Positions 25,529-61,800 of a stretch of 64,000 nt of DNA are shown piece after piece (the first letter of the stretch is position 1; every line of letters starts with the position of its first letter). The translations under genes were made by a program, and so were the position numbers. The notes beneath the pieces were generated by a model. It was not told where the DNA came from. It worked only from the letters and a program-made list of their open reading frames with translations, and searched no databases. Source of the DNA: Laccaria trichodermophora (Eukaryota; Basidiomycota; Agaricomycetes; Agaricales; Hydnangiaceae); contig JACTVC010000005.1 in NCBI GenBank assembly GCA_018417955.1, positions 1 through 64,000 on the forward strand, read 5' to 3'.

Positions 25529-25559
25529 TGCTTAGTCATCATTTTTAGCGAAAATGAAG

Positions 25560-28115: not shown

Positions 28116-28289
28116 TTGTCGCCACGGCGGCATTGAAAAAAAAAAAAATCCCTTGATAGATTGCTTCTGCACTAAATATTAGGAAATAGCGAGTAAAATT
28201 GTTCAGTCGGGGAAGGACAGACTGACCGTTCTTTTCTGCCGTCGTTCATATCAACTATCAAAGTTCACGTTCTACTTTGTCGCTTCACC

Positions 28290-32960: not shown

Positions 32961-33358
32961 GAAGCCATGGAGTAATTTTGGTTTTTTTGACTTATGCGAT
33001 ATTCAACTATGGCCAGTTTACGTCCCCCCTCCCATATACAACTTTATCGCACGCTCTGGTACTCAACTACCATACATATTCCTTACCTTCTCTTATGTTC
33101 TGCCAACAATTGACTCAATAAATGGTCGCTGTTCAATTGTATTCAACATCGCTCTCCTTGTTTGCCAAAACTTGGCAGAGTTGAAGCTTATGTCCATTCC
33201 ATCGGCTCAGCCTAGTGAGTTAACAAATCATTATCTTCCCCAAGTCAGACGCTGTGATGAACTTTGTTTGATTTGTTAACCGCTCAACACTTGCTTGAAA
33301 AACAGGTGTTGGACTAGTTGTTTTTGTTATATACATAGAAGTAAAACTGTTTGATAAT

Positions 33359-38814: not shown

Positions 38815-39057
38815 CTAATTTGGATATTTAGTTGATAGCACACATAAGACATGACCCACTCATGATGAAAGGAAAGGTAACGTCACAGTGTCCAGGTGGG
38901 GGAAAGGAAGAAAGGGCGGGGGAAAGAAAAGACGCCATCTGATGCGAAGGGTCTGCCCTAAAGATCTCACAAACAACGGTAAAGGCAAATTTCCAAGGCG
39001 AGGAAAATCCGAGATCCCATCAAGGGTCTCAGAGATTCGTTGCTTCGGTGCCTTGGA

Positions 39058-39109
39058 ATGACGCACGAACATTTCCCATCAATGCGATCGGGAAACGTTC
39101 GTGCATCAT
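39058..39109. repeat. 53-bp hairpin module, copy 3
   Basis: Arms begin ATGACGCACGAAC and end GTTCGTGCATCAT around a spacer with a GATC core; one arm has a single change relative to the other copies. The flanks (gtgccttgga, gaaggcacga) extend the inverted repeat imperfectly. Confidence 0.7.
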
Positions 39110-39573
39110 CGAAGGCACGAGAAGCCATGAACGATGACAATTTGTTTGTTTATTTCACTCGCTCTACCAAACAAAGCTAACTCTCCTTCCTTTCCACCCT
39201 ACCATCCTCTTTCCCCGTCGCCCCCATTCCTGTCCGCCCACCGAGTGCCAGAACAACGGGGACGACGACCACAACCACGACACAGCAACACCACCCAACA
39301 ACGTCCACGACGACCCAAAAGCGAACGGCAACAACCACCAAGAAACAGGCGCGTAGAACCCGAATACGCCAGCTGCCACACGAGACGACGAGATGATGGG
39401 ACGACGTGGCGACGAAGCTACGAGGCGAGGACGTGACATGGCAACGGGCGACGAGATGACGACGAACAACGATGAGCCTGGCTATTTGTCGTTGTCGTTC
39501 GTCATATTTCCTTATTTCGTGAGTCTGTCCCCCCTCAACTGCATGGGTGACCTTGCTGAACACGAGTTCCAGG

Positions 39574-39609
39574 TGCCACGTCGCCATGAGCGCTCATGGC
39601 GACGTGGCA
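39574..39609. repeat. Perfect 36-nt palindrome, no loop
   Basis: Arms TGCCACGTCGCCATGAGC and its exact inverse meet at the centre between 39591 and 39592. Related cacggcgatg blocks occur in the tandem repeats at 51050-51400. Confidence 0.85.
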
Positions 39610-39879
39610 ACCAGATTTGATGTCGTCAACTCGTCAACGTTGTCAACGCCGTCAACGTTGTCAATGCCATCAACGCCGCCATCAACCTCGTCTCTCACCA
39701 CAGGCTTGGCAAGCTTTACCCCTGGGAGGTGCGTGTATTCTTGTTTTTATCGATTGAACTTACCTACTCACTGATTAGTTTGAATAGATGAGTAGAATCT
39801 GCACTTGCAGTTCTCCCCCAACGGCCTCAATGCCCTCAATGCCCCCGCATACTGCGCCGGAGTAAATCCAGTATTTTCA

Positions 39880-40280
39880 CTAGTGGGCACCACTAGTTAT
39901 CATAACTTATAGTCAATTGCCTGCACAGTCATTTATTTGCAGCCAAGTAAAAATATGAAATGAAATGGCTAGGCAAATGAAATGATATGTGTCTTATTTC
40001 ATTCTGCCTACCTTATGTCATTCAACTTGGGATCCTGTCATTCTTCCCTAGGACTATTTATCATTTCTTCTCTAGGGCGATATTTTTGATATTTCATTAT
40101 TCCCCAGGGCTATATATCATTGCTTCCCAGAGTGATATTTATGATATTTCATTCTTCCCCAGAGGTCTATATCATTGGTTGTCTAGGGCGATATTTTTGA
40201 TATTTCATTGTTTTGCAGGGCTATATATCATTGGTTGCCTAGGGCGATATTTTTGGTATTTCATTGTTCCTCAGGGCTAT
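39880..40280 (+). repeat. Left segment of fold-back element X
   Basis: Nearly identical to 51580-51958: the shared run starts tgcctgcacagtcatt and includes ~60-bp repeats with ctagggcgatatttttgat and cagggctatatatcattg. At 40280 it is cut by element E2; its continuation (atttttggtccagg) is found at 54180 reading leftward. The outer end carries the self-complementary AGTGGTGGGCACCACT-like sequence also seen near 51560. Confidence 0.75.
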
Positions 40281-40639
40281 TACGAGTCCTCTGAGTTTAC
40301 GAAGAGACTCGTTTATTCCCCAGGATCTCAAGACTTTTTTCAGCGCGGTAACGCTGAAATTTGACTTTCTCCCACGAAAGTGATTTCTTCCCACGATCAG
40401 CTGTCTGCTTAGCATTGACGGCTTTGCTAGTTTACTTTACTATTCCTTACCTATCACTTGCTTTTAGTCCTATACAAGTTGTCATTAATGTAGGTGGTAG
40501 CTGAGGTACTGCCCTATTTGGCTGTCAGACTCTAACATATGAATATATTGCCTCTATTTCACATTTATGTAACAATAGTTCTTTATGTTGAAGATATAAT
40601 GATTAAGGACATGACAATTTTTGTGGCATATTTTTAGGA

Positions 40640-42440
40640 AGTGTGTGGGTATCCGAACAAGCCCTCGATCACAGAAAATGGGGCATATTGAGGCCCTGGG
40701 GAGTTGTGAGCATATGGGCAAAAAAGCGAAAATACACACTGACCTAGCTCCACGAGACCTCAACCGTTTTGTAAGCGGTTTTGGGGAGCGTCTTCACGGA
40801 GTGTGGGGGTATCCAAACGAACCCTCGACCATGGAAAACGAAGCAGATTGAGGCCCTGGGGAGTTTTGAGCAGATAGGCAAAAAAGCGAAAATACACACT
40901 CACCTAGCTCCACGAGACCTCAACCGTTTTATAAGTGGTTTTGGGGAGCGTCTTCACGGAGTGTGGGGGTAACCGAACGAGTGCTTGATCACAAAAATCG
41001 AAGCAGATTGAGGTCCTGGGAAGTTGTCAGCACAAGGGGAAAAGGAGCGAAAAGACAAACTTACCTAGCTCCATGAGACCTCAACCGTTTGGTACGCGGT
41101 TTTCGGGAGCGTCTTCACGGAGTGTAGGGGTATCTGATTGAGTACTCGATCGCAGAAATTGAAGCAGATTGAGGTCCTGGGGAGTTGTGAGCATAAGGGC
41201 AAAAGAGCGAAAATAGAAACTGACCTAGCTCCACGAGACCTTAACCATTTCGTAAGCTGTTTTGGGGAGCGTTTTAGCGGAGTGTAAGGGTATCCGAACG
41301 AGTCCTCGATCGCGAAAATCGAAGCAGATTGAGGTTCTGGGGAGTTGTGAGCACAAGGGCAAAAAAGCGATAATAGAAACTGACCTAGCTCCACGAGACC
41401 TTAACCATTTCGTAAGCTGTTTTGGGGAGCGTTTTAGCGGAGTGTAAGGGTATCCGAACGAGTCCTCGATCGCGAAAATCGAAGCAGATTGAGGTTCTGG
41501 GGAGTTGTGAGCATAAGGGCAAAAAAGCGATAATAGAAACTGACCTAGCTCCACAAGACCTCAACCGTTTTGTAAGCGGTTTGGGGGAGCATCTTAGCGG
41601 AGTGTAGGGGTATCCGAACGAGTCCTTGATCACAAAAATCGGCGCAGATTGAGGTTCTGGGGAGTTGTGAGCACAAGGGCAAAAAAGCGATAATAGAAAC
41701 TACCTAGCTCCACGAGACCTTAACCAGTTTGTAAGCGGTTTTTGGGAGCGTCTTAGCGGAGTGTAGGGGTATCCGAACGAGTCCTTGATCACAAAAATCG
41801 ACCCAGATTGAGGTTCTGGGGAGTTGTGAGCACAAGGGCAAAAAAGCGGTAATAGAAACTGACCTAGCTCCACGAGACCTTAACCGTTTTGTAAGCGGTT
41901 TGGGGGAGCGTCTTAGCGGAGTGTAGGGGTATCCGAACGAGCCCTTGATCACAAAAATCGACCCAGATTGAGGTTCTGGGGAGTTGTGAACACAAGGGCA
42001 AAAAAGCGATAATAGAAACTCACCTAGCTCCACGAGACCTTAACCATTTTGTAAGCTGTTTTGGGGAGCGTCTTAGCGGAGTGTAGGGGTATCCGAACAA
42101 GTCCTCGATCGCAAAAATCGAAGCAGATTGAGGTTCTGGGGAGTTGTGAGCATAAGGGCAAAAAAGCGATAATAGAAACTGACCTAGCTCCACAAGACCT
42201 CAACCGTTTTGTAAGCGGTTTGGGGGAGCGTCTTAGCGGAGTGTAGGGGTATCCGAACGAGCCCTTGATCACAAAAATCGGCGCAGATTGAGGTTCTGGG
42301 GAGTTGTGAGCATAAGGGCAAAAAAGCGCAAATGGAAACTGACCTAGCTCCCCGCAACCTCAACCGTTTTGTAAACGGTTTTTGGGAGCATCTTCACAGA
42401 GTGTGGGGCTATCCAAGCGAGCTCAAGATCATGAAAATCG
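40640..42440 (+). repeat. ~160-bp tandem array, about 11 units
   Basis: The anchor ACCTAGCTCCACGAGACC occurs at about 40742, 40902, 41063, 41223, 41383, 41543, 41702, 41862, 42022, 42182 and 42342. Spacing is 159-161 bp. Each unit also has a weak dyad (AACCG...CGGTT). Neighbouring units are more alike in blocks, suggesting unequal exchange. The open frames of 60-110 codons here repeat with the array and are not genes. Confidence 0.9.
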
Positions 42441-42469
42441 AAGCCGCGTTGACAGAGAACTTTCATTGT

Positions 42470-42931
42470 GTTTGGACTAGCCAAGACGGCAATGTACCAT
42501 TCCACCAACAAACTACACACAGCCACATGAGCAAGAGTCAAGACACACATTACAAGTTGACCAGATCCCCACCCAAATGAAATATTGCTGTGAGATGAAT
42601 ATGGTAGACATGTGGCACTCGAATTGTTTGGACTGGCCAAGACAATGACAAGCATGCAAAGGAAACAGACAAGATGTGGTAGATAGATACATTGCACAAA
42701 TCGTTTGGACTGGCCAAGACAACAAAGAGTGCAAGACAGCAAAGCAAACAGCACACCACCTGCTTTGGATGTGGCATTATGTGTGTCGCGTTTGGATTGT
42801 TCAAGACGATGACCATGCTAATGTGGCATCACAGAATACTCTGTGTTGTGTTTGGATTAACCAAGACGACAACAACACAATGGATGTGGCATCACAGAAT
42901 GCTCTGTGTCATGTTTGGATTGACCAAGACG
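42470..42931 (+). promoter_or_regulatory. Six dyad motifs in E2
   Basis: Copies at 42470-42488, 42626-42644, 42703-42721, 42790-42808, 42850-42868 and 42913-42931, all forward. The outer halves (GTTTGGA and CAAGAC) are constant. The five central bases vary (actag, actgg, attgt, attaa, attga), so TTGG-N5-CCAA is kept in all but one, where the right half reads TCAA. Confidence 0.65.
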
Positions 42932-42987
42932 ATGACAACAGGGTTTGTACTTAGCAAGCAGAAGTTGACGTTGAGTCTTCGGAAGTA

Positions 42988-43065
42988 TCCGAAAATGACG
43001 TACTTCCCTTGCGGGCTACCTTTGATTTTGAAGGTAGCCCGCAAGGGAAGTACGTCATTTTCGGA
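42988..43065. repeat. Perfect 35-bp-arm hairpin with 8-nt loop
   Basis: Arms 42988-43022 and 43031-43065 are exact inverses and the loop is TGATTTTG. The arms contain ATGACGTACTTCCC. The mirror copy in E3 is at 56055-56132. Short further pairing (cggaa/ttccg) continues outward. Confidence 0.88.
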
Positions 43066-43129
43066 GATTTCCGATGCTTACAAATCCAGCCTATACACAT
43101 TATATTAGCTGTAAAGGGCTTGCTGCTTG

Positions 43130-44700
43130 CGACAATGAGCTTAGGGTGTTGCTCACTGTTGGTGGCGAGGTCGGGGGTCGTTTTCAGGGTCCAGGGCGCA
43201 TTTCTAAATAAGGAAATGTGCGCATTTTCAGATGTAAAATAGCAATAAATTAGCAGAAAAATCACCAAAATCACAAAAAATTGAGGGTAGTCTGGTAATG
43301 ATGTTGGAGGTTGTTTTCAGGGTTCAGGGCACATTTCTAAATAAGGAAATGTGCGCATTTCCAGATGTAAAACAGCAATAAAATAGCAGAAAAATCACAA
43401 AAATCACAAAAAATTGAGGGTAGTCTGGTAATGATGTTGGAGTTTGTTTTCAGGGTTCAGGGCACATTTCTAAATAAGGAAATGTGTGCATTTTCAGATG
43501 TAAAATAGCAATAAAATAGCAGAAAAATCAGAAAAAAATTGAGGGTGCTGCTTACTGCTGGTAATGATGTTGGAGGTTGTTTTCAGGGTCCAGGGTATAT
43601 TTCCAAATATGGTAATATAGCCAACAATAGCCAGAAAATCAGAAAAAAAAATGGAGGATAGTGGTGATAACCTTGGGTAATGTTGTCAAGGTTCAGAGGC
43701 TATTCTCATCATGGTAATATAACCAGAGATAGCTAGAAAATAGCCAGAAAATCAGAAAGAAATGAGGGATGGTGCTTATTGCCAGTGATAACCTTGGGTA
43801 ACATTGTCAGAGTCCAGAGTCTAGTTCCAAATAGAGTAATATAGACCCAAAAATAGCCAGAAAATAGCTAGAAAATCAGAAAAAAATGGTGGATGGTGCC
43901 CACTGCAGTGATAACATTGGGTAATCTTGTCAGGGTCTAGTTCTATATATGGTAATATATCCAAAAAAAAGCCAGAAAACTGTTATAAAATCAGAAAGAA
44001 ATGGAGGATGGTGCTTAGATATCATTGGGTAACATTGTCAGGGTCCAGAGTCTAGTTCCAAATATGGTAATTAGCCAGAAAATGGGCAAAAAATCAGAAA
44101 AAAATGGTGGATGGTGCTCATTGCTGCGATAATGTTTGGTAATGTTGTCAGGGTCAAGGGTCCAGCTCCAAATATGGTAATAGATCCAAAAATTGCTGGA
44201 ATATAGTGGAAAATTTGAAAAAAAAAAAAAGTTTGAATGGTATGTAGAATGTCAGGCACTACCTTCAGAGTCCATACCAAAAAAGAAAATATCATCTACT
44301 TTGACCAAAAACTGGAGAAAACCAAGCAAATAATAACTTTGTCTATTACGGCCTATTGGTAATGGGATGATGGGATGATTGTCACATGATCAGTTACCAA
44401 AAATAGTCAACAAATGGAAGTTGTAGCCCTACACTGAAAGTGCTCCTGTTGTAGAGATAATCTAACTTTGTAGTCTATGTCTGACATCTGCAGTCTTTTA
44501 TTGTATATTAGTAAACTTTGTAGTATAAGTTTGCTAAAGTGTTCAGGGTATAGAGCAGACATCCAAATATGGTAATCCATTAAAAATAGTCATAAAATCT
44601 GTGAAGATTGAAGGATGGTGCTTATTGTTAGTAATGATGTTGGGTAACAGTTTCAAGCTCTAGGGTAGATTTCCAAATATGGTAATCTACCTGCATATAA
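43130..44700 (+). repeat. ~120-bp degenerate tandem repeats of E2
   Basis: Units contain gatgttggaggttgttttca, gggtccaggg, catttctaaataaggaaatg or aaatatggtaatata, and agcagaaaaatca. They are the same family as 26520-27240 in E1. No gene is seen; the rest of the element to 44939 also lacks coding capacity. Confidence 0.8.
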
Positions 44701-44939
44701 TGAGAAAATAAGAAAAAAATAAGAAAATCATAGAAATGTTTTTTATTGATGGTGATGATGCTGGGGTAATTTGTTTAGAATCCAGAAGAAGACTTATATA
44801 GGAAGATTTACTGGTTTGTGATAAAAATGTACCCAGAAAGACAGAAAAAAAGGAGAAAAAGTAGAAATTGGTTTCTATTGCCTTGGCAAAAAAAGGAGGA
44901 CTCGTTTCTGCCATGCTTGCAATGGCCTCTAACACAAGT

Positions 44940-46740
44940 CATAAATCTTTGCAACAGGATTTTGGAAAGTTATTGCATTTGCATGCATCTTGTACCGTCC
45001 AGAGGCTACTTTGATTATACAGCGATTGTGGCGAACACGTGATATGAGAAGCTGTTCAACATAAGTTAAGCAGGCAAGCTCATCAGGAATTTTACCAAGC
45101 CAAAAACCATTACAAAGTGCATTAGCGGGTATTTTTCCTTTGTCTAGACTTTTATTGCAAGTTTTGCATATATATTTACAGTCATCATCAATCACAGGCC
45201 CCGTGATTTCATGAATTTCATTTTGTTCAGATTTTCTTTCTATTCGGGAAACCCCTTCTCGAATCAATGGCTCCAAGTTACTTGAGGTATCAGATCGTTT
45301 TAACATGTCCGATACTCTCGTTAGCTGACCACCAACTGCGCATCCAGATTCAAGAAGTTTGGAAGGGTGTGTGTCTTCACAGAATCCACTAATTATTCTA
45401 TGAATTAATTTCTTAGAGGGTGGTTTAGGTGGGAATTTAGTGATTTTTGATGTCTGATAAGTAGACTTATTCTCTTTACTTCTCTTAGTTTTGTACGTTG
45501 GACCTTTTAAAAATTTAATGTACTTTTTTTTAATGATTTTTTTCTTGTCCGCTTTACTTAGGCCCTTGTACCATTTAGCTTGACGTTCAGAAGATGTCAA
45601 AGCTGGCTTCACTGGAGCAAACAATGTATAAAATTGAGAACATCTTGATGAACACATATGTGCGGATAAAACCTCCAGCACGTCTGCAACCAGAGATTTG
45701 CTCGGTATTGTAACATTGTGCATCTTTGCAATAGATTTTGCTTGAACTAATGATAATTTCCCCTTTAATAATTCCAATGGCATATAACATATAAGAAGTT
45801 CAGGGTTTTTACGTAACTCAGCCTGAGCTGCTTGAAGCACAACCTGGCCAACATATTTATAATTGATGGAGGTTGCATTCTGTGGTTCTAGACTGTATGG
45901 AGTTATATAGCTTTTGATCTCGCTTATGTTTGCATTGAATTTTCCACCACCATATTGAATGGAAGGCACAACCGTTGGCATTGCTTGACAAGTGCATCCA
46001 TACCCATACCAATGTCTAATAGAATGAAGATAAGGTTTATCTATGGTTGATGCATGGTTAAAGGAAACTCTATTTGACAATAACGGTTCATAGCTATACC
46101 AGTCAGAGATGGATGAAACTGAGGTATACGTATGGGCAGATATATATTGAATTGTTTGTGAAACCAGAAGCAAGGAGAAAAAATGCACAACAAACTGACG
46201 ACGAACAAATAATGCAGGTAGCGATAAAGAGAGGTGCTCTCGAAACAAGCGAAGTTTGTTTGCATACAAATGATGGTAACTACAATGTCTTGAGAATCGA
46301 AGTGCAAGCAAAATGCAGAGATCAATAGCGTAATTTACTGATAAGGAATATACAATTGCACTATAGTATACCAAGGACGGTATTTGACTGTACAGGTATT
46401 CCAAGGCAAACTCAAACAGCAAATGGATTACACAAGTTAATTTCACAGTCACTTCTCGGAACTCATTGGCATAGACGGTGCTCGTCTTAGCCTGAACATA
46501 TATTTCCCAATCTGTCTGCTCAGCCAGACGTATATAATCATCGTTGACATAGTCAACATGTGCCTGCAGGCTCGGATTGTTTCCAATCTCTATTATGGAT
46601 GCATGAAAGCTCGGGCTGTTCTCAGCCGCTATCAATCCTCTGCAAATTGCTTTGGATTCTATATTTGTATCAGTGTGATAGGTTGTGTAAGGCAGAGGAA
46701 TGATGGTAAGTAGCAAGAAAGTCGATCGATATAGGTTCAT
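44940..46740 (-). pseudogene. Helitron H2 Rep-helicase, N-terminal fragment
   Basis: Reading leftward from ATG 46740 (MNLYRSTFLLL), about 600 residues align with the N-terminal part of the H1 protein. Examples are IEIGNNPSL, VLQAAxAELRKNPELLIC, KFPPKPPSKKLIH, CNGFWLGKIPDELA and the end at NPVAKIYD. The frame then runs into E2 and stops after two codons. The next residues of the protein (TLPPPLEEL) are encoded from 58841 on the other strand. The first Cys pair seen in H1 (GCAACG) reads GCAVGG here, so one zinc-ligand candidate is lost. Hydrophobic segments near the N-terminus are conserved with H1. Confidence 0.9.
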
Positions 46741-46813
46741 TGTGAATGGAGTAGGAAGAGAAGACAGCAATCCGCATCAGAATGTTGAAAGTTGAACAAT
46801 CACATGACTTGAT

Positions 46814-47341
46814 TCACATGCACACGTGATTTTTTAGACTTTGCGGTGTTGACCATGGTGGATCAAAATGTCTGACTGTGTGATGGAGGTAATGTAGGCC
46901 AAGAAGGTGTGTATAATGTATTTTTGCTGTATTTCCTGTAAGCTCGAAACTCTTTAGCAAGAAAAACTGTTGCATCAGGCCTGTCTGTGTGTCCCAGTCC
47001 GAGTCATCCAGATGATAATGAAGGTGGTATATATATTGGGCGATGTGTGGACTAGCATGGAAAAGTTTGAAAAGGTGTCGGACTGAGGGCCCCGCAACGG
47101 AAATTGTTGTGAAAAGACGTCTTTGCGATGGTTGAACCAACAATCGGCACGTTCGGGACATGGAGGACAGTGTTTTCCAATCTTCAGCGAGCGTAAGCTG
47201 GTCCAAGACAGAATCTTGTAAGACGTTGAACGGGACGGTGACTCGCATTCCTTTTTCTAATTGTTCGTCAGTTCGATGCAGTAGTAGATTAGCTGGCTTA
47301 CTTGCAATCAAAAGCTTGTAGTATGGAATAAATCCTGACAA
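46814..47341 (-). pseudogene. F-box-protein-like fragment inside Helitron H2
   Basis: About 175 residues with LQDSVLDQLTLAEDWKTLSS, then CRLLVQPSQRRLF, a pattern I know from the N-terminal region of Agaricomycete F-box/LRR-like proteins (condensed LxxCSLVSRxxxxPxRxxLF). It lies between the accessory gene and the Rep-helicase gene of H2. In H1 the same interval is only about 110 bp, so this is probably a host fragment captured by the Helitron. It ends without the LRR region usual for the family. Confidence 0.55.
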
Positions 47342-47605
47342 GATTACTAAGCAGAGTCCAATTCAGCAGTAACACATCACATGGCCTTCAAATTTGCCGA
47401 AATGTAACCCATGTAACACGCCGTTGCTGAAACCATTTGGTCATCACATTCTCAAGTAGAATTTTGCTGTCATGTTTATTGCTTGAAGTTGGAGAAACAT
47501 ATTCATACCACTGTTTCAATTGACTTGATGAGTTTGTTGTGCATACCAATATCTTATTTCTCATAATTATTTACAAATGGCCCTATGTATCTTTGTATGT
47601 ATCTA

Positions 47606-50353
47606 TCACCACTCAGCATTACACTTTATCAAGGTGGTTCTTAATTCAGGTCGATGTTTGATGAGGAAGTTAACTGCTAATGTTTCTGTTTGTCGTATAA
47701 GTAACATTGACTCCTTGTGACCCTTAAGGAAGTTCCTCCATTGCGAGACTGGACGAGGCTGGGCACTGCCTGAACGAATTTCAGCAAGACGGGTTGAATA
47801 TAATGCTTCTGCCCATTCACTCCATTCGCCATAAACTTGATTTGTAGATTCATTGTCAATGATACTGGATGGCGGCCACCAAGACTTAAAAGCTGTATCA
47901 CTGGCACGAGCTATCAAATAGATCTGGTCAGCACTCGTATTGGTTAAAAAGAGAATAAAAAAAACATACATGTTCCACACATATATGTTCCACACAAAAG
48001 ATCCATCTCATGTTTGGATAACTTGTCATCCACAAATTCTTTGCCATCACCCTCAATAGAAAACATACTAGCACCACCAATAGGACCCTCCAAAACTTCA
48101 TCCAGGCTAACGCTGCCTATAACTAATCTCCAGAAGTATCCACCCCAAAGGATTGCAGCTCGAATACGAGGCCGACAAAGCATACGTGCCCTGAAGTACA
48201 GATATGCTTCATAGTCGGCTTGCGTGAAGATATAGTCTTGAGGACGACTGGGTAAATAAACGTCAACTTCAGGTACTGATGGTGACAATGGGATCTGAGC
48301 CCTTGAGGCCAAGGTTCGAAATGCAATGCCACGACCTGCCAGATACCTAGCAATATCGATATCCAGGAATCGATCATCAAGTCTACAGACAAGCAATGCA
48401 TCTGATGCGGATGTGACTGCCAATTTCCATGGCACTGTGGCTTCTACTCCAAAGTCAAAGATATACCAGGTTTTGATGTGTTTTCTATCATCTTTGTATG
48501 GGTGATTGAAATCATGCCGTTCATTGTCAAGAATATTGATCACATGACAGATCTGTTGAAGGCGTTTGGATTTTGTTAAGGAATCAGCATGATACATGTT
48601 AATATCACAGTTGATATTTTGAATGTTTTGGCGACACTGCAGTTCTTCCGTGAAGGCAACCCAAAACCTGACAAGGTCCAAATTCCAGAATTGATGTAAC
48701 ACATCTTCATTTTTATTTGTCGGCAATAGACCAATCCATCGGAGCCAAAACTTTCGATGTTTACTGGTCAAAGAGGGTAATCCTTGAGAGTTGAAGGTTT
48801 GTGGAGTGACCAATCCATAACGTTCATGCATGATGTGTTGTACTTGATCGATCAGACCTTGTAAGGTGCACCTTGGGCCCTTCAGAGTGTCCTGGTAGTG
48901 GTCAGGCAATGTATTGGCATTCTCATAGTCTTCTTCGGTCATGGGCTGAATCATGGGTTGTTGTAGTGGGGGTTGTTCAATCATCTCATCATACTGCTTG
49001 GGATTTTGGAAAGGATCAGCATCTTTATATGTATCTTCATCTTCCTGACTGCTAGATGCATCTGGTGGTCCAAATGCACAACAACAGTCCCACTGATTCC
49101 AGAATGAGCTATAGACTTTTTGCTGAGAGCCATATTCTGCCAAAGTTTCCTCACGTTCTCTAACAAAAACCTCCTCACGAACAAGATGATCAGGATCTCT
49201 GTCCCACACAAAGACCTGTGCAGTCTTTGTTGGTGGCATCTGTTCTCGATTCAACCTTCTCGCACGTTCAGATGGCTTCTCAAGAAAAAGCAATCGGGTT
49301 AAGGACTCCCTGCGTTTCTGGAAAAAATGTTCCCAAATCTGGTTCGGGTACTTCTTAGCGAGATTTGTTGGTATGTGGGAAAGAGCTTCCTCCCTTTGAA
49401 ACTCGATTTGATGAGGCAGAGGACCTATTGATGATAAATAAGGATTTCCCTCAGCTCTCTTAATCTCATACTTGTCCCATTGGTACCAGACAGGAATATT
49501 ATGATCGACAAACCATCGGACCGATGGTTGGCAGGTGTGTCTAATGTCGGTATTGTTCAGATGTATAAATGTGCCCACACGCCGACTCTCATGGGTACAA
49601 GTGCCAATATCAGATGCACGTATGAGGTCAATAATTGAAGGATGGAACTGCAGCGTTTCAACTAGAAAGGAGTTCCATTCTTGATACGATGTTGAATCGG
49701 CTCTTGCGACTGCATAAGAGAAGAGACCAATCCACAGAAGAAAGATTTCTCTAGCGGCATGTGCTTCCCTCCATGCAATGGAAGGTGATGCATGTGCCCT
49801 CAGATATCCTCGTGCAGAAGGATATGCGGGAGCGAGTGCTCCAAATCTACTCAAGCCTTTCATTGCGTTGACCATCCAACATTCTGCATTTCGCCATCCA
49901 TTCATAACGTGGGCAGGCAACTGGTACTTGCCATTGACTTGATCGAAATCACTGGGTATGTGAGCAAGAATGCCAAGTAAAGCACCTTCAAGGTGAGCAC
50001 GTTTAGGTATGAATGCCATCCACCCAAACACCTGTGTCCACCAATGAGGTACGTGGATCATGGCAGACAGATTTTCATGGAAGTGTACAGTGGGACTTTC
50101 CAGGCTTCGAAGATCAACACAGTTTGGAGGAGTTTGAATATCGTCACTACAGTTAGGAGAATAAAACAGCCGGTCTTGAATTCGTTGAAGTCGTCCACGA
50201 GAGCGATCAAGGGGCCTTGATACTAGTTAGTAAAGATGGAGTGCAATTGTTAACAGATACGCACGCATTTTCATTTTCAGCTGTGGCGCTGTGCAACTCT
50301 GGAAAATAAGGCTCACGCCGGGGTGCACTGGGAGCAGCCATGTCCCAAGGCAT
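47606..50353 (-). CDS. Helitron H2 accessory protein (homologue of the 4230-6792 gene)
   Basis: Spliced gene read leftward. Exon 1 starts MPWDMAAPSAPRR at 50353 and ends at 50265 (donor GTGCGT). Intron 50264-50216 has a TACTAAC-like branch site and exon 2 starts at 50215 in matching phase. Exon 2 carries FHENLSAMIHVPHWWTQ, FVDHNIPVWYQW and RRPRIRAAILWGG. A last intron begins GTATGT near 47971 and the final exon (from about 47923) encodes SWWPPSSIIDNES through VSQWRNFLKGHKE to the stop at 47606. The phase at the last junction could not be made consistent, so a small lesion there is possible. The first 0.3 kb shows that the H1 gene probably has an extra 5' exon. Function unknown. Confidence 0.7.
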
Positions 50354-50984
50354 AACGCTAAAGTGCACGATGAATTGAGTATGGTAAAATACGCGAAAAT
50401 CGCAACACTTACATAGATGGATTGTCCATGTAGCGTTTAGCAACTAGATTTTCTGACCTCAATGGAGTCCGTTGATGATAAGTTCGTAATAATCGAGACC
50501 TTATTGCGTTTGAGAAAGCAAATATTGAACCCACAACAGGTTTGGTATAACCAAGACGCTATCGTGCTAATCTGAATGCAAGAACCAGGACAGAAGATAG
50601 GTTTGGTATAACCAAGACGCTATCACGCCAGTCAAGTTGACGCTTGGATCGGATCAGAGATCTCAAAAATCAATGGGAGTCAAAGCGGCCGTCTCGTTGT
50701 GACCGTTGAAATATAGTATCCAATGATGCAAAGACCTTGACAGAAGATAGGTTTGGTATGACCAAGACTCTATCACACAGGGCTTGAAGGTTTGTACAGA
50801 GGATCAACGAAGCAGTCGTTCCGTGGTGAGTTTGCGAGCCCAGGTTCAATTGCAAGTGGCATTTGACTTATCTACGATAATTACATAATAAAGTTCAACT
50901 TTACAAAAAAGTACGATACGGTAGGTGCTCTGTAATAAGATAACCAGGAAGAAACACGAAGAAGGGGCCATGTTGTGAACGTGT
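50354..50984. other. Upstream region of the H2 accessory gene with dyad motifs
   Basis: No gene. It carries three copies of GTTTGGTATAACCAAGACG-type motifs at 50540-50558, 50601-50619 and 50751-50769, each preceded by ggacagaagatag-like or caacag context and followed by ctatc. In this version the core TTGGT-ATA-ACCAA is a perfect inverted repeat. Relative to the accessory gene they have the same orientation as the nearest copies upstream of H1. Confidence 0.65.
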
Positions 50985-51545
50985 CACGGCGATGGGGTGG
51001 GTGGGAAACAAAGCAGGGGAGTTTGGAACGTCGTTTGGTGTGTAAACGACGTTCCACGGCGATGAGTTGGGTTAAACAAAGCTGAGGGGGTGGAGACCAG
51101 CCAACGCCCGCGGCAGACGAAGCAAGTGGGTTTTGGATGACGTTGTTGACATCGTCAACGTGTAGCGGCGTTGTCGACGATGTTGATGGCAGCGTTCACG
51201 ACGTTGTTGATGTCGTCAACATGTAGCGGCGTTGATGACGTCGGGGCTGGGGACAGCGACGACGTTGACGAAGCAGGTGGGTTTGGAACATCGTTCGGCG
51301 TGAAAACGACGTGCCACGGCGATGGGGTGGGGCAGACAAAGCAGGGGAGTTTGGAACGTCGTTTGGTGTCTAAACGACGTCCCATGGCGATGAGTTAGTT
51401 GGGTTAAACAAAGCTGAGGGGGTGGAGACCAGCCAACGCCCGCGGCAGACGAAGCAAGTGGGGTTTGGATGACATTGTTGACGTCGTCAACATGTAGCGG
51501 CGTTGTCAACGACGTTGATGGCGGTGTTGACGACGTCGGGGCTGG
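50985..51545 (+). repeat. ~328-bp tandem repeat with GTCAACG minisatellite
   Basis: The run caaagcaggggagtttggaa occurs at 51009 and 51337, and the block caaagctgagggggtggaga follows in both. The units include gttgacgtcgtcaacatgta-type sub-repeats and cacggcgatg blocks like the palindrome at 39574-39609. Open frames here are repeat by-products. Confidence 0.75.
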
Positions 51546-51559
51546 CTGTAAAATACGAG

Positions 51560-54180
51560 TGGTGGGCACCACTTATATGATAAATACTAGGCAGTTGCCT
51601 GCACAGTCATTTATTTGCAGCCCAGCAAAAATATGAAATGAAATGGCTAGGCAAATGAAATGATATGTGTCTTATTTCATTCTGCCTACCTTATGTCATT
51701 CAACTTGGGATCCTGTCATTCTTCCCTAGGACTATTTATCATTTCTTCTCTAGGGCGATATTTTTGATATTTCATTATTCCCCAGGGCTATATATCATTG
51801 CTTCCCAGAGTGATATTTATGATATTTCATTCTTCCCCAGAGGTCTATATCATTGGTTGTCTAGGGCGATATTTTTGATATTTCATTGTTTTGCAGGGCT
51901 ATATATCATTGGTTGCCTAGGGCGATATTTTTGGTATTTCATTGTTCCTCAGGGCTATATTTTTGGTCCAGGACTATATATCATTGCTTGCTTAGGGCAA
52001 TATTTTTGATATTTCATTGTTTTCCAGGGCTATATATTATTGTTTGCCTAGGGCGATATTTTTGGTATTTCATTTTTCCCTAGGGCAATATTTCTGGTAT
52101 TTCAGGGTTGTTAGGAAAGTGGTCACATGACCATTTTCTTAAAATAGCAAAAAAAAAAAAAAAGTTGCAGCCCTGCACTCTAGCTTCTAGAATCTATTTG
52201 AATTATGTTCTGAAGTGCTCCTGTTGTGAAGATATGATCTAAAAGACTTTCAAAAGTGTCGCGTTTTTTTTTGTTTTTTGCATTTTTCTCCATAAAAACA
52301 AAACCAAACAACATAATTTCAGTACATTTAGAAAGCTAAAAGAAAGGGCTACAATTATTTTATCGTGGGAAAAATGACCAAAAAAGGAAGGTGCATGTAG
52401 TGTGTGCTTTTTCATTAGAAAAGTTTATAGTGTGCGCTTTTTCATTAAAAAAGTTTGTAGTGTCCACTTTTTGAGAGCTACACAAGATTTGTAGTCTGTG
52501 CTTTTTCATTAGAAAAGTTTATAGTGTGCGCTTTTTGAGACTACGAATGATTTGTAGTGTGTGCTTTTTCATTAGAAAAGTTTGTAGTTGACATGTAGTT
52601 TATAGTGTCCCTGACTCTGTATAGGTTCTGGGGGATGTGGTTGAAGGATTGACATGACCTTACATATTGCCATTGCTGCAGTCTATTCCTTCATATTCAT
52701 AGCTACTGTCCTACCTCAAAACACAGTGAGGTGCATGGAGATATGGGTTGTAGGATTGACATGACCTTACATATTGCCATGGCTTCAGCATTAGTTTTTG
52801 ACATCATGCCCAGTTGGCTTTCAGACCATGGAATGCTATTGTAGTTCACATGTAGTTTATAGTGTCCCTGACTCTGTATAGATTCTGGGGGATGTGGTTG
52901 AAGGATTGACATGACATTGCATATTGCCATTGCTGCAGTCTATAGCTGCTGTCCTATCTCAAAAGACAGTTATAGGTTCATGGAGACATGGGTTGAAGGA
53001 TTCACATGACATTACATATTGCCAAGCCTGCAGCATTAGTTTTTGACATCATGCCCAAGTTGACTTTCACATCAGGACAGGCTATTTTCTGCTTTCACAT
53101 TGATAGCTATTGGCCTGTCCCAAAGATATGTCCCAAAGATAGTTATCAATATGAATAGCCTCCCCTGGTCTGAAAGCCAACTGGGCATGATGTCAAAACC
53201 CAATGCTGCAGAAATGGTAATATGTAAGGTCATGGGAATCCTTCAACCCATATCTTCATGAACCTATAACTTTCTTTTGACATAGGACAGTAGCTATCAA
53301 TATGAAGGAATGGACTGCAGCAATGGCAATATGCAATGTCATGTCAATCCTTCAACCACATCCCTCAGAACCTATACAGAGTCAGGCACACCATAAACTA
53401 TGTGTGAGCTACAAACTTTTGTAGTCCCAAAAAGCAGACACTACAAAAAGCAAACACTACAAACTTTGTTAATGAAAAAGCACACACTACAAATCTTTTG
53501 TAGTCTCAAAAAGCGGACACTACAAACTTTTTTAATGAAAAAGCGCACACTACAAATCTTTTGTACTCTCAAAAAGTGGACACTATAAACTTTTCCAATG
53601 AAAAAGCACAGACTACAAATCTTTTATAGTCTCAAAAAGCAGACACTACAAACTTTTTTAATGAAAAAGCGCACACTACAAATCTTTTGTAGTGTCAAAA
53701 AGCTGGACACTACAGACTTTTCTAATGAAAAAGCACACACTACATGCACCTTCCTTTTTTGGTCATTTTTCCCACGATAAAATAATTGTAGCCCTTTCTT
53801 TTAGCTTTCTAAATGTACTGAAATTATGTTGTTTGGTTTTGTTTTTATGGAGAAAAATGCAAAAAACAAAAAAAAACGCGACACTTTTGAAAGTCTTTTA
53901 GATCATATCTTCACAACAGGAGCACTTCAGAACATAATTCAAATAGATTCTAGAAGCTAGAGTGCAGGGCTGCAACTTTTTTTTTTTTTTGCTATTTTAA
54001 GAAAATGGTCATGTGACCACTTTCCTAACAACCCTGAAATACCAGAAATATTGCCCTAGGGAAAAATGAAATACCAAAAATATCGCCCTAGGCGAACAAT
54101 AATATATAGCCCTGGAAAACAATGAAATATCAAAAATATTGCCCTAAGCAAGCAATGATATATAGTCCTGGACCAAAAAT
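51560..54180. repeat. Fold-back element X: long inverted repeat centred near 53.1 kb
   Basis: 51560 to about 53100 is mirrored, imperfectly, by about 53150-54180. Mirrored blocks include ggaaagtggtcacatgacca, a poly-A/poly-T run, gtgaagatatgatctaaaag, ~62-bp repeats with aatgaaaaagc (53471, 53533, 53597, 53662, 53725) and gggatgtggttgaaggattg. The missing outer part of the right arm is at 39880-40280. The intact copy of the E2 insertion site (ggctat/atttttgg) is at 51958/51959. No coding capacity. Confidence 0.8.
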
Positions 54181-57100
54181 ACTTGTGTTAGAGGCCATTG
54201 CAAGCATGGCAGAAACGAGTCCTCCTTTTTTTGCCAAGGCAATAGAAACCAATTTCTACTTTTTCTCCTTTTTTTCTGTCTTTCTGGGTACATTTTTATC
54301 ACAAACCAGTAAATCTTCCTATATAAGTCTTCTTCTGGATTCTAAACAAATTACCCCAGCATCATCACCATCAATAAAAAACATTTCTATGATTTTCTTA
54401 TTTTTTTCTTATTTTCTCATTATATGCAGGTAGATTACCATATTTGGAAATCTACCCTAGAGCTTGAAACTGTTACCCAACATCATTACTAACAATAAGC
54501 ACCATCCTTCAATCTTCACAGATTTTATGACTATTTTTAATGGATTACCATATTTGGATGTCTGCTCTATACCCTGAACACTTTAGCAAACTTATACTAC
54601 AAAGTTTACTAATATACAATAAAAGACTGCAGATGTCAGACATAGACTACAAAGTTAGATTATCTCTACAACAGGAGCACTTTCAGTGTAGGGCTACAAC
54701 TTCCATTTGTTGACTATTTTTGGTAACTGATCATGTGACAATCATCCCATCATCCCATTACCAATAGGCCGTAATAGACAAAGTTATTATTTGCTTGGTT
54801 TTCTCCAGTTTTTGGTCAAAGTAGATGATATTTTCTTTTTTGGTATGGACTCTGAAGGTAGTGCCTGACATTCTACATACCATTCAAACTTTTTTTTTTT
54901 TTCAAATTTTCCACTATATTCCAGCAATTTTTGGATCTATTACCATATTTGGAGCTGGACCCTTGACCCTGACAACATTACCAAACATTATCGCAGCAAT
55001 GAGCACCATCCACCATTTTTTTCTGATTTTTTGCCCATTTTCTGGCTAATTACCATATTTGGAACTAGACTCTGGACCCTGACAATGTTACCCAATGATA
55101 TCTAAGCACCATCCTCCATTTCTTTCTGATTTTATAACAGTTTTCTGGCTTTTTTTTGGATATATTACCATATATAGAACTAGACCCTGACAAGATTACC
55201 CAATGTTATCACTGCAGTGGGCACCATCCACCATTTTTTTCTGATTTTCTAGCTATTTTCTGGCTATTTTTGGGTCTATATTACTCTATTTGGAACTAGA
55301 CTCTGGACTCTGACAATGTTACCCAAGGTTATCACTGGCAATAAGCACCATCCCTCATTTCTTTCTGATTTTCTGGCTATTTTCTAGCTATCTCTGGTTA
55401 TATTACCATGATGAGAATAGCCTCTGAACCTTGACAACATTACCCAAGGTTATCACCACTATCCTCCATTTTTTTTTCTGATTTTCTGGCTATTGTTGGC
55501 TATATTACCATATTTGGAAATATACCCTGGACCCTGAAAACAACCTCCAACATCATTACCAGCAGTAAGCAGCACCCTCAATTTTTTTCTGATTTTTCTG
55601 CTATTTTATTGCCATTTTACATCTGAAAATGCACACATTTCCTTATTTAGAAATGTGCCCTGAACCCTGAAAACAAACTCCAACATCATTACCAGACTAC
55701 CCTCAATTTTTTGTGATTTTTGTGATTTTTCTGCTATTTTATTGCTGTTTTACATCTGGAAATGCGCACATTTCCTTATTTAGAAATGTGCCCTGAACCC
55801 TGAAAACAACCTCCAACATCATTACCAGACTACCCTCAATTTTTTGTGATTTTGGTGATTTTTCTGCTAATTTATTGCTATTTTACATCTGAAAATGCGC
55901 ACATTTCCTTATTTAGAAATGCGCCCTGGACCCTGAAAACGACCCCCGACCTCGCCACCAACAGTGAGCAACACCCTAAGCTCATTGTCGCAAGCAGCAA
56001 GCCCTTTACAGCTAATATAATGTGTATAGGCTGGATTTGTAAGCATCGGAAATCTCCGAAAATGACGTACTTCCCTTGCGGGCTACCTTCAAAATCAAAG
56101 GTAGCCCGCAAGGGAAGTACGTCATTTTCGGATACTTCCGAAGACTCAACGTCAACTTCTGCTTGCTAAGTACAAACCCTGTTGTCATCGTCTTGGTCAA
56201 TCCAAACATGACACAGAGCATTCTGTGATGCCACATCCATTGTGTTGTTGTCGTCTTGGTTAATCCAAACACAACACAGAGTATTCTGTGATGCCACATT
56301 AGCATGGTCATCGTCTTGAACAATCCAAACGCGACACACATAATGCCACATCCAAAGCAGGTGGTGTGCTGTTTGCTTTGCTGTCTTGCACTCTTTGTTG
56401 TCTTGGCCAGTCCAAACGATTTGTGCAATGTATCTATCTACCACATCTTGTCTGTTTCCTTTGCATGCTTGTCATTGTCTTGGCCAGTCCAAACAATTCG
56501 AGTGCCACATGTCTACCATATTCATCTCACAGCAATATTTCATTTGGGTGGGGATCTGGTCAACTTGTAATGTGTGTCTTGACTCTTGCTCATGTGGCTG
56601 TGTGTAGTTTGTTGGTGGAATGGTACATTGCCGTCTTGGCTAGTCCAAACACAATGAAAGTTCTCTGTCAACGCGGCTTCGATTTTCATGATCTTGAGCT
56701 CGCTTGGATAGCCCCACACTCTGTGAAGATGCTCCCAAAAACCGTTTACAAAACGGTTGAGGTTGCGGGGAGCTAGGTCAGTTTCCATTTGCGCTTTTTT
56801 GCCCTTATGCTCACAACTCCCCAGAACCTCAATCTGCGCCGATTTTTGTGATCAAGGGCTCGTTCGGATACCCCTACACTCCGCTAAGACGCTCCCCCAA
56901 ACCGCTTACAAAACGGTTGAGGTCTTGTGGAGCTAGGTCAGTTTCTATTATCGCTTTTTTGCCCTTATGCTCACAACTCCCCAGAACCTCAATCTGCTTC
57001 GATTTTTGCGATCGAGGACTTGTTCGGATACCCCTACACTCCGCTAAGACGCTCCCCAAAACAGCTTACAAAATGGTTAAGGTCTCGTGGAGCTAGGTGA

Positions 57101-58839
57101 GTTTCTATTATCGCTTTTTTGCCCTTGTGCTCACAACTCCCCAGAACCTCAATCTGGGTCGATTTTTGTGATCAAGGGCTCGTTCGGATACCCCTACACT
57201 CCGCTAAGACGCTCCCCCAAACCGCTTACAAAACGGTTAAGGTCTCGTGGAGCTAGGTCAGTTTCTATTACCGCTTTTTTGCCCTTGTGCTCACAACTCC
57301 CCAGAACCTCAATCTGGGTCGATTTTTGTGATCAAGGACTCGTTCGGATACCCCTACACTCCGCTAAGACGCTCCCAAAAACCGCTTACAAACTGGTTAA
57401 GGTCTCGTGGAGCTAGGTAGTTTCTATTATCGCTTTTTTGCCCTTGTGCTCACAACTCCCCAGAACCTCAATCTGCGCCGATTTTTGTGATCAAGGACTC
57501 GTTCGGATACCCCTACACTCCGCTAAGATGCTCCCCCAAACCGCTTACAAAACGGTTGAGGTCTTGTGGAGCTAGGTCAGTTTCTATTATCGCTTTTTTG
57601 CCCTTATGCTCACAACTCCCCAGAACCTCAATCTGCTTCGATTTTCGCGATCGAGGACTCGTTCGGATACCCTTACACTCCGCTAAAACGCTCCCCAAAA
57701 CAGCTTACGAAATGGTTAAGGTCTCGTGGAGCTAGGTCAGTTTCTATTATCGCTTTTTTGCCCTTGTGCTCACAACTCCCCAGAACCTCAATCTGCTTCG
57801 ATTTTCGCGATCGAGGACTCGTTCGGATACCCTTACACTCCGCTAAAACGCTCCCCAAAACAGCTTACGAAATGGTTAAGGTCTCGTGGAGCTAGGTCAG
57901 TTTCTATTTTCGCTCTTTTGCCCTTATGCTCACAACTCCCCAGGACCTCAATCTGCTTCAATTTCTGCGATCGAGTACTCAATCAGATACCCCTACACTC
58001 CGTGAAGACGCTCCCGAAAACCGCGTACCAAACGGTTGAGGTCTCATGGAGCTAGGTAAGTTTGTCTTTTCGCTCCTTTTCCCCTTGTGCTGACAACTTC
58101 CCAGGACCTCAATCTGCTTCGATTTTTGTGATCAAGCACTCGTTCGGTTACCCCCACACTCCGTGAAGACGCTCCCCAAAACCACTTATAAAACGGTTGA
58201 GGTCTCGTGGAGCTAGGTGAGTGTGTATTTTCGCTTTTTTGCCTATCTGCTCAAAACTCCCCAGGGCCTCAATCTGCTTCGTTTTCCATGGTCGAGGGTT
58301 CGTTTGGATACCCCCACACTCCGTGAAGACGCTCCCCAAAACCGCTTACAAAACGGTTGAGGTCTCGTGGAGCTAGGTCAGTGTGTATTTTCGCTTTTTT
58401 GCCCATATGCTCACAACTCCCCAGGGCCTCAATATGCCCCATTTTCTGTGATCGAGGGCTTGTTCGGATACCCACACACTTCCTAAAAATATGCCACAAA
58501 AATTGTCATGTCCTTAATCATTATATCTTCAACATAAAGAACTATTGTTACATAAATGTGAAATAGAGGCAATATATTCATATGTTAGAGTCTGACAGCC
58601 AAATAGGGCAGTACCTCAGCTACCACCTACATTAATGACAACTTGTATAGGACTAAAAGCAAGTGATAGGTAAGGAATAGTAAAGTAAACTAGCAAAGCC
58701 GTCAATGCTAAGCAGACAGCTGATCGTGGGAAGAAATCACTTTCGTGGGAGAAAGTCAAATTTCAGCGTTACCGCGCTGAAAAAAGTCTTGAGATCCTGG
58801 GGAATAAACGAGTCTCTTCGTAAACTCAGAGGACTCGTA
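54181..58839 (-). mobile_element. Non-autonomous Helitron/Helentron-like element E3 (4659 bp), inverted copy of E2
   Basis: Position p in E2 corresponds to 99120 minus p here. The 3' terminus (ACACAAGT read on the minus strand) is at 54181, next to element X. The 5' terminus is at 58839, next to the H2 Rep-helicase frame. It carries the same ~160-bp array (about 56680-58480), six dyad motifs (56189-56650), the 35-bp-arm hairpin (56055-56132) and ~120-bp repeats (about 54420-55990). Together with E2 it forms a 4.66-kb inverted repeat separated by 9241 bp. Confidence 0.9.
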
Positions 58840-58840: not shown

Positions 58841-61800
58841 CACTCTTCCTCCTCCTCTTGAGGAACTTGATGAAGTCTTGGCTGTTATGTTTACAGGACC
58901 TTGTCAACCTACAAAAAAAGACCTTCAACGTACACCATTGCTGGTCCGTCGAAAGCAGATTTCAAAAGCACTTGAGTGGTTAAAATTGAACCATTCTGAC
59001 TACTTTGACATCGGAATATCACAGGAGAATTTGAGCCAGTACCCTTTGAGTGATGCACCAGTTGTAATTGACTATCGTCAGTCAATAATAAATAGGGAGC
59101 GAGAAGCTACAAGTGTTCATGATAATGAAGAAGAGATAGGTACCGAAGAGGGTCCTTGTACTTTTGTAGTGCAAGGGCTGACTGGAGAAGAGTATTCTAC
59201 CATGTCTTTGGAGGCAATAAAGGCTCGAGCACTGAAGCATTTGACATCCAATAGAAAAATCATGTTTGCAGGCCATTCTCAACAACCCAACTCCATTTAT
59301 AACAACCCTCAACTATTTCCTGCTATGCTACCATGGCTATTTCCTTATGGCCTTGGAGGTATCGGAAATGATATGATACCCCATAACATATCTACAATGG
59401 CCCACAAGCGTTTACTGTTAATGTATCATGATAAGCGATTCCAAATGGATCCACATTTTCCACTTATTGCATTCAATCATGAACAAATACAACAAAGTAC
59501 AACGGGAGGTTATCTTACGACCAAAAAATCCTCATTTAATTCAGTAACTGAACGCTTGCTTAACCTTGACATGCAAGTGATATCTAGCATAAATAAAAGA
59601 CTTGCTTCAGGTGAACGAGTAAAACCAGAAACTGAGCAAGAAAAAGAATGCTTTCAATTGTTGAAGGATCTGGATTCAGTTGGAGGTCACGTGCAAGGTT
59701 CAACAACATCTAAAAAATACATGCGAAATGAAGTTTGGTCACTTATATCTTATATTGGTGCTCCCTCCTGGTTTATTACGCTTTCTCCAGCAGATGGCAA
59801 GCATCCTATTTGTCTTTATTTTGCTGATACCAACACAGAATTCAGACCTGAATTAACCTTTTCACCAGAATGCTCTACATTAATTGCGAAGAATCCTGTA
59901 GCTGCAGCACGCTTTTTTCATTTTATCTGTGAGAACTTTATTAAACATGTACTAGGTGTTGGAAGTAATCATCCTGGGTTATATGGTGAAACAGATGCAT
60001 ACTATGGAACAGTTGAACAACAAGGGAGGTTAACACTGCACCTTCACCTGCTTTTGTGGATAAAAGGTGCCTTATCTCCTCAAGACATACGAGATCGAAT
60101 TATGGATCCTTCATCTGACTTTCAAAAATGTATTGTTGAATATCTTGAATCAGTACATAAAGGAGAACTTCATGGAGGATCCTCTGAAGATATTCGAGCT
60201 CAATGTCAAGATGCTCAGAAAAACAACCCTGAATACAAAAATCCAACCCATACTATGCCTATACCTCCACCTCCTCTCTGTAAGAATAGAGGGTGCAACA
60301 AATGTTTAAGATGCACTAATCTTAAAGTATGGTGGGGTAAATTTCATGCAACAACAGATGATCTTTTGTCTAGATCAAATCATCATGGGTGCCGCAGACC
60401 TGAAATAGATGGGGAAGACCCTACAAAAGTGAAGCGGAAAGGTTGTCTAAATGCACAAGGCCAATGTAAGGCACGCTTTCCACGTGAGATTGTAGAGGAG
60501 ACAATGGTTGATCCACTGAGCGGTGCATTGAAAATAAAGAAAGGTGAAATGTGGCTCAATACATTCACACCTGAGCTAACATATCTTCTTCGCTGCAACA
60601 CAGATACTACTAGCTTGATGTCAGGTACAGCAATAAAGGCAGCTGTTGGATATATCACCGAATATGTAACAAAAACTGGCTTAAATTCATATACAGCTTT
60701 TGATGCCGTTCGTCAAGTGTTTAACAGAAACTCTGAAATGATTGGAGGTAATGATGACAGGCAAAATACTGCTCGTCAATTGATGACAAAAATGGTGAAT
60801 GCATTAACTGCTAGGATGGAAATAGGAAGTCCCATGGCTTCTCTCTATCTGCTTGGAAACCCTGACCATTATACAAGTCACAAGTTCACTCTTTTCTATT
60901 GGAAAAATTTTGTAAGACAGGCTAGAAATCCCTGGATGATTACAACAGAAAGTGACACATCAAATTCAGCTGTTTCTGAGGAGAAAGAAATGCCAGAGAA
61001 GGTAGTACTGCAAAATATGAGGGAATGTACATTGGATTGTCAAATGTTTATGATTATATTTACCATCCTATTGTTTATGAGAAGATGTCTTTATATGACT
61101 GGATAAGAAAAGCAAAAAAAGAGAAACGCTCGAAAGAGGAGCAGCAGGAATTTGATGCTCACTATGACAAAAATGAAAATGAAGTAGAATCTGATGATGA
61201 ATCAGTTACTGAAGGAGAAGATGAACTCAATTTTCTGGGCGGTGGAGCAACTGCATGTGATATAGAAGATGAATCAACAGATGAATTGCTTGGTGAATTG
61301 GATTCTGATGATGAACTTAACAACTATGAAAATTTTTATGATGATGAACCAGATAGTCAAGAGTTTCTACCTGATCACCCTCAACATTGTACACACAAGG
61401 TAGTTGTTGTTGATGAGGAGAATGCTCTTATACCAAATTTTGTTGGTGGAGGCTTACCTCGCCGTGATCAAGGTGACAGAGAATATTACTGTTCTACTAT
61501 GCTTTCTTTGTTCAAACCTTGGCGAAATGGCAAAGATTTGAAACTAGAAGATGAATCTTGGGATGAAGCTTTTTGTGGCTATGCATTTTCAGCAAGACAA
61601 CTTGAGCTTATGAATAATTTCAATATCAAGTATGAATGTAATGATGCAAGAGATGACTACTCTGCACAAATGAAAAAGAAAGGTGAAAGAGAAGGAATAT
61701 TAGGCTCATGGGATGACAGTGGTGGTGAACTTGATACTAACTTTCCTGACTTTGGTGAAGATGGTCTATTGGATATTGATGAATCACTGTATATGTTGGG

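Follow-up and report, generated by a model that had tools for sequence, protein, structure and literature searches.

The giant Helitron H2 and its inserted elements

The window, which is the whole 64,000-nucleotide stretch analysed here (Laccaria trichodermophora, contig JACTVC010000005.1), belongs to a genome assembly of 59.0 Mb in 77 contigs. One of its two Helitrons, H1, retains a single long ORF (6902-15052, 2716 codons) that encodes a DUF6570 domain, a Helitron_like_N Rep domain (PF14214) and a PIF1 helicase domain (PF05970). A fragment of a Gypsy-type polyprotein, matching RNase H, integrase and chromodomain, begins at the H1 3′ end and occupies positions 15327-18128. One of the proteins encoded here shares 66% identity with a Laccaria bicolor protein, 59% with a Laccaria amethystina protein and 27% with a Mycena protein, which fits an agaric-type basidiomycete. 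Scanning the window for tRNAs and Rfam families gave no matches.

The giant Helitron H2 is ~79% identical to H1 over 5 kb. By sequence comparison, its match to a Helitron copy on C39 begins at window position 21433 and ends at contig position 71252, with four E-type insertions, a stretch named X and an inversion as the exceptions. Three of the insertions (E1, E2 and E3) are in the window, and the fourth, E4, lies just beyond it at C45:64448-69404. The C39 copy, the left one of two (C39 198592-227818), is 29.2 kb long, and the giant Helitron H that it represents has its ends in common with the E elements. H2 is a giant Helitron chopped up by its own smaller relatives. The features of the locus are given below in window coordinates.

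21433-22399, plus strand: start of the H2 body, which lacks its 5′ end, as the match to the C39 copy does not begin before 21433
22400-27602, plus strand: E1, a related element inserted in H2 at a clean, unswapped site
27603-39406, plus strand: upstream part of the H2 body, collinear with C39 201211-213008 at 98.9%
39407-40280, plus strand: outer part of X (a palindromic stretch internal to H2), interrupted by E2
40281-44939, plus strand: E2, a Helitron-type copy of 4659 bp without a long ORF; 5′ flank X, 3′ flank H2
44940-54180, no strand assigned: inverted segment of 9241 bp between the twins; un-inverted order seen in the C39 copy and in the flank joins
44940-50607, minus strand: part of the H2 body that is now reversed, with ORFs 44929-46770 and 47944-50061
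50608-54180, minus strand: rest of X, comprising the remainder of the cut arm, the centre and the intact second arm
51562-52536, no strand assigned: intact X arm, with site 1 unbroken at 51958/51959
54181-58839, minus strand: E3, the inverted twin of E2, 4659 bp with 2 substitutions; 5′ flank H2, 3′ flank X
58841-64000, plus strand: continuation of the H2 body with Helitron_like_N and PIF1 helicase ORFs, extending to contig position 71252

The H2 ORFs encode the same three domains as H1 (DUF6570, Helitron_like_N and PIF1) in pieces. ORFs 58878-61106 (PF14214) and 61025-62740 (PF05970) contain one Pfam domain each at E ≤ 0.001, and the ORF at 44929-46770 terminates 11 bases within E2. X is made up of 39407-40280 and 50608-54180, is 4.4 kb long and has palindromic arms of ~980 bp with 95.6% identity. 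A preliminary description of this DNA treated X and H2 as two distinct host elements. X was ruled out as an independent element because it sits inside H2, at a position that the C39 copy fills with another repeat stretch, of 1.7 kb (C39 213009-214723).

No ORF of at least 200 codons was found inside E2 or E3. Their ends are alike, with TACGAGTCCTC at the 5′ end and, at the 3′ end, GAGGACTCGT followed by 34 bases, of which the last letters are CACAAGT. Tandem arrays with units of 160, 133 and 115 bp lie inside E at window positions 40640-42444 and 43176-44071, and their summed length varies between most E copies. An E subfamily with a duplicated 185-bp 5′ end is represented at C13:91770-91954, C77:1163384-1163568, C77:1164446-1164630 and in other copies.

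Several features of Helitron2 elements are found here. Both E and H have an asymmetric terminal inverted repeat, in which ACGAGTCCTC lies one base inside the 5′ end and its complement, GAGGACTCGT, is followed by 34 bases up to the 3′ end. The autonomous partner encodes Rep (PF14214) and PIF1 helicase (PF05970) according to Pfam. Insertion takes place without target duplication after a fixed T, and this common T leaves a one-base ambiguity in position. A T precedes the 5′ end in all 17 elements with a readable 5′ flank, and the first 3′ base over 18 elements is A in 8, C in 5, G in 3 and T in 2. A candidate 5′ hairpin of E (z -2.55) was equalled by 3 of 200 shuffles and the predicted 3′ stem-loop GCCAT/ATGGC (z 0.37) by 121 of 200. 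An endonuclease family, as required of a Helentron, was not among the Pfam matches of the H1 or H2 ORFs at E ≤ 0.001. E2 and E3 had been described as two inverted non-autonomous Helitron-like elements with an inversion readable to the base, and this agrees with their lack of a long ORF and with junctions that are exact to the base.

The segment between E2 and E3 is inverted relative to a C39 copy

The segment 44940-54180 is inverted relative to the C39 Helitron copy, with the flanks of E2 and E3 swapped on both sides. X terminates in GGGCTAT at 40280 and starts again, in reverse, with ATTTTTGG at 54180. The join of the E2 5′ flank with the E3 3′ flank (site 1) is unbroken in the second X arm at window 51759-52158, where the 400 bases match at 99.75%. 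H2 is broken at 44940 on the minus strand and picks up again at 58841. The corresponding join of the E3 5′ flank with the E2 3′ flank (site 2) is unbroken in C23, C65, C39 (twice), C11 and C2 at 98.5-99.5% over 400 bases and in C77a at 97.75% over 400 bases, i.e. in seven places of the genome altogether, and 304 bases of it are unbroken in another C39 stretch. The independent occurrences are fewer than seven because the two C39 copies are near-identical. The main BLAST matches have an E of 0, well past chance.

The left C39 Helitron, which is the one reference for the full order of the locus, is collinear with the window only after 44940-54180 is turned round. Window 27603-39406 then equals C39 201211-213008, window 50607-44940 equals C39 214724-220391 and window 58841-64447 equals C39 220393-225998. 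The preliminary description had X broken at 40280 and resumed in reverse at 54180, H2 broken at 44940 and resumed at 58841, and both sites mended by inverting 44940-54180. The unbroken X arm, the seven unbroken site 2 joins and the un-inverted order of the C39 copy bear out each of these points.

Flanks of the E and H elements were compared in a flank-join test, in which 17 usable 5′ flanks and 18 3′ flanks were combined into 306 joins of 200+200 bases and compared with ~311 kb of local sequence. A join was scored when the match extended 40 bases beyond it both ways at >85%. The right C39 H copy (H39R) has no 5′ flank because the contig ends there. Clean self-joins (at least 92%) were found in six elements, namely E1, E4, H39L (100%), C39bE, C77a and C11. 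The self-joins of C12 (86%) and C23 (85%) are partial, lie in tandem sequence and were not counted as clean, and C39pE, C13a, C13b, C27 and C4 had no join among the 306. Neither E2's own two flanks nor E3's own two flanks were found joined within the ~311 kb. The sole cross-joins among the 306 were those of E2 with E3 and of C77m with C77p, in both directions each.

Origin of the twins and of the inversion

The alignment of E2 with E3 spans 4660 bases, including one extra common T, and contains two substitutions and 0 indels. The preliminary description was right about the 4659-bp inverted copies but claimed one difference. The substitutions are at E2 41990 / E3 57130 and at E2 43507 / E3 55613. 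The first lies within the 160-bp tandem array, where E2 alone has A in one unit and each matching unit of 13 other motif-bearing copies, including E3, has G; E1 and C39pE gave no match to the motif. At the second, E3 alone has G and 12 other motif-bearing copies, including E2, have A, with no match to the motif in E1, C39pE and C11. From these comparisons, E2 and E3 seem to carry one derived change apiece.

End-to-end alignment covered 12 E copies shorter than 6 kb (C77a, C23, E1 and C39pE were left out). E2 and E3 diverge by 0.043% and C77m and C77p by 0%, and these are the only pairs below 0.36% among the 12 copies. The nearest other copy to the twins in this set is E4 at 1.08%. C77a comes closest when unique segments are compared (4 differences in 1584 bases, as against 0 between E2 and E3). 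Columns with a state private to E2 and E3 amount to 2 of 360 (against 12 other copies), 2 of 726 (against 5) and 0 of 500 (against 12). When the genome was searched for the first 350 bases, E2 and E3 alone among the best 40 candidates had the full score, and the next best matches, where read, had two mismatches. Because the twins agree in length, in their array and in private columns and diverge by 0.043%, it is likely that one is a copy (daughter) of the other and that they are not separate arrivals. The same observations contradict the "two independent insertions" of the preliminary description.

The explanation nearest to that earlier reading is that two independent insertions were later homogenised by gene conversion and that the inversion came from the same recombination. 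Inverted repeats are able to convert each other. However, conversion would have to span the complete 4659 bases right up to each exact end and take in a tandem array that is variable between copies, and the two differences that are left look like a single new change per copy. Such a history is very improbable. A mismatch count had been proposed for locating an exchange tract between E2 and E3; it returned just the two differences and no tract.

Eight inverted pairs were tested in this small sample from a single assembly, and three of them look swapped, one on one side only. Besides E2/E3, the flanks are swapped on both sides of C77m (1158454-1163568, minus strand) and C77p (1164446-1169560, plus strand), which are head-to-head with a spacer of 877 bases. 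C77m and C77p have 0 differences over their 4930-base bodies, and the wider inverted match has 0 mismatches. The right spacer end and the C77m 3′ flank are joined, over the full 800-base flank, at no fewer than six other places (C23, C34, C45, C65 and C13 twice), and the left spacer end and the C77p 3′ flank are joined in C12 (99.5%) and C11 (96.5%). The third pair, C13a/C13b at C13:91770-106315, is tail-to-tail, 5.3 kb apart, 1.1% divergent and of unequal length. The C13a 5′ flank and the C13b 3′ flank belong to the same arm of an X-like palindrome, where they are separated by 295 bases of tandem units. The C13b 5′ and C13a 3′ flanks were unjoined at 17 further 5′-flank matches (at least 91%) and at 3 weak 3′-flank matches (73-79%), so the pair is counted as one-sided.

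The tally is therefore two two-sided and one one-sided swapped pairs, and one near-identical and four other unswapped pairs. The near-identical one is the C39 H/H pair (198592-227818 and 229121-251194), whose copies lie tail-to-tail across a 1.3-kb spacer; the right copy is cut short by the contig end. Its copies have 0 substitutions and 2 gaps over 14,768 aligned bases and 3 substitutions over a further 5,491, and the array of the right copy is ~1.8 kb longer than that of the left. On the left, the testable side, this pair is unswapped, as its left flank directly adjoins the spacer sequence in C77:1152061-1154823; its right side lies beyond the contig. The remaining unswapped inverted neighbours (E3/E4, E1/E3, C77p/C77a and C39bE/C39pE) are weaker controls because they are not near-identical. 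C77a and C77p have 14 differences in 859 bases, E4 differs from E3 by 1.08%, and E1 and C39pE belong to subfamilies too divergent to align in the unique segments used. Mirrored matches at C77:1179077-1181828 and 1192667-1195418 suggest a further inverted pair, of a related short element that has TTATGAGTCCTTACGAG at its 5′ end and of which one copy, read at its edges, lies within C77a.

With three of eight pairs looking swapped (one of them on one side), orientation is near random, as it might be if the assembler had turned the segment between 4.7-kb inverted repeats and there were no biological inversion. C39 ends in a repeat arm, so repeats did limit assembly. On the other hand, eight of the contigs seen exceed 1 Mb in this assembly of 59.0 Mb in 77 contigs, and a 29-kb Helitron copy was assembled whole beside its near-identical inverted twin. 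Contig sizes and this whole copy suggest reads long enough to span 5-kb repeats, and two substitutions distinguish E2 from E3. An orientation error is therefore quite unlikely.

The 9.2 kb were probably flipped by homologous recombination between E2 and E3, one of which had likely arisen earlier as a nearby copy of the other. An E copy residing in H2 would have produced, by the rolling-circle route, a second copy that faced the other way at a different T target of this H2. This copying may have been driven in trans by an H-type Rep-helicase, as H and E have terminal sequences in common. E2 and E3 would have been identical at birth, since each seemingly carries one derived change. Crossing over between the 4.7-kb inverted repeats would flip the segment, and it could also flip back. 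If the flip is a separate later step, both swapped and unswapped near-identical pairs are expected, and both are seen (C77m/C77p and C39 H/H). The C13a/C13b pair, with copies 1.1% apart and of unequal length and one side swapped, fits recombination between distinct copies.

As expected of ectopic recombination, E2 and E3 are in opposite orientation with exchanged flanks, and the un-inverted order with empty sites is found elsewhere (in C39, and in further H copies for site 2). Against recombination, E2 and E3 are too alike, with two differences only, to reveal a crossover point or a chimeric copy, the C13 pair was rejoined on one side only, and the four inverted neighbour pairs that are not near-identical are unswapped. 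Recombination between inverted copies accounts for the exchanged flanks, for ends that are exact and for the fact that nothing was lost. The inversion by recombination proposed in the preliminary description thus stands as an inversion relative to C39, with recombination as its best but not its sole explanation.

Alternatively, a single E copy might have transposed replicatively (by rolling circle or hybrid ends) into a second site on the same molecule, inverting the intervening DNA in one step and leaving identical copies with swapped flanks. Such duplicative inversion accounts for all of this, and also for how alike the copies are, with one event per locus, which is fewer than recombination requires. 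At the two loci with swaps on both sides, the paired copies show no or very few differences (0 and 2), and the flanks are swapped without loss or gain except for the common T. One-step duplicative inversion with identical inverted copies is a known product of bacterial replicative transposons. Identical copies are also what an excerpt of the study of the Drosophila transposon Galileo gives as the expectation for hybrid element insertion (PMC2775673). A one-step origin is nevertheless unlikely. Both polarities are seen (E2/E3 tail-to-tail, C77 head-to-head), the near-identical inverted C39 H/H pair is unswapped on its testable side, and the C13 pair is swapped on one side despite 1.1% divergence. 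The latter two observations favour two steps over one, as does the literature, in which recombination between inverted elements is well documented, whereas no one-step inversion by a Helitron or other rolling-circle element was found among the titles and abstract openings searched. The preference for recombination as a second step is moderate because the tally is small. If the one-step route were true, Helitrons of this genome that move nearby on the same molecule would invert the DNA between donor and target.

Comparison with known systems

A base-exact inversion is here tied to rolling-circle elements at two loci on both sides and at a third locus on one side, in one genome and with very young copies. 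With both swapped and unswapped pairs among the near-identical ones, it becomes testable whether Helitrons do no more than offer inverted repeats to host recombination or can invert DNA by their own transposition.

A close parallel comes from Drosophila buzzatii, where inversions 2j, 2q7 and 2z3 have exchanged flanks at Galileo copies and the authors conclude, in the excerpted text, that ectopic recombination took place (PMC2775673). Like E2/E3, Galileo has two opposite-facing copies at both breakpoints, exchanged flanks and an un-inverted order with empty sites elsewhere, according to the same excerpt (PMC2775673). Galileo is described there as a cut-and-paste transposon with 7-bp target duplications (PMC2775673), whereas E is Helitron-type and has none. 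The excerpt treats identical copies as the expectation for aberrant (hybrid element) insertion and regards a chimeric structure of the copies as the hallmark of recombination (PMC2775673). At 2z3, chimeric copies are taken as proof of recombination (PMC2775673), whereas the E2/E3 and C77 copies are identical or nearly so. In comparison with the Galileo inversions, the flipped segments here are 0.9 and 9.2 kb.

HINE/DINE-type non-autonomous elements are like E in having no long ORF, Helitron2-type ends and internal tandem repeats. HINEs have central tandem repeats and are much shorter than 4.0-5.5 kb. E copies without large inserts, at 4.0-5.5 kb, are far longer. The HINE/DINE-type elements derive from Helentrons, as cited in an excerpt of the Fusarium oxysporum FoHeli study (PMC5148889).

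That excerpt mentions recombination between Helitrons as a route to deletion, not inversion (PMC5148889). FoHeli elements are described as ~5-11 kb long (PMC5148889), compared with 29.2 kb for the host element here (C39), and the terminal sequences differ. FoHeli (Helitron2) is nonetheless like E and H in its asymmetric terminal inverted repeat, whose 3′ unit lies ~30-50 bases short of the end, in the T ahead of the 5′ end, in the nesting of a non-autonomous copy within an autonomous one, and in short duplicated 5′ ends of <200 bp (PMC5148889 for FoHeli); those of the C13 and C77 copies measure 185 bp. FoHeli also has a 5′ hairpin (PMC5148889), for which E has a candidate counterpart.
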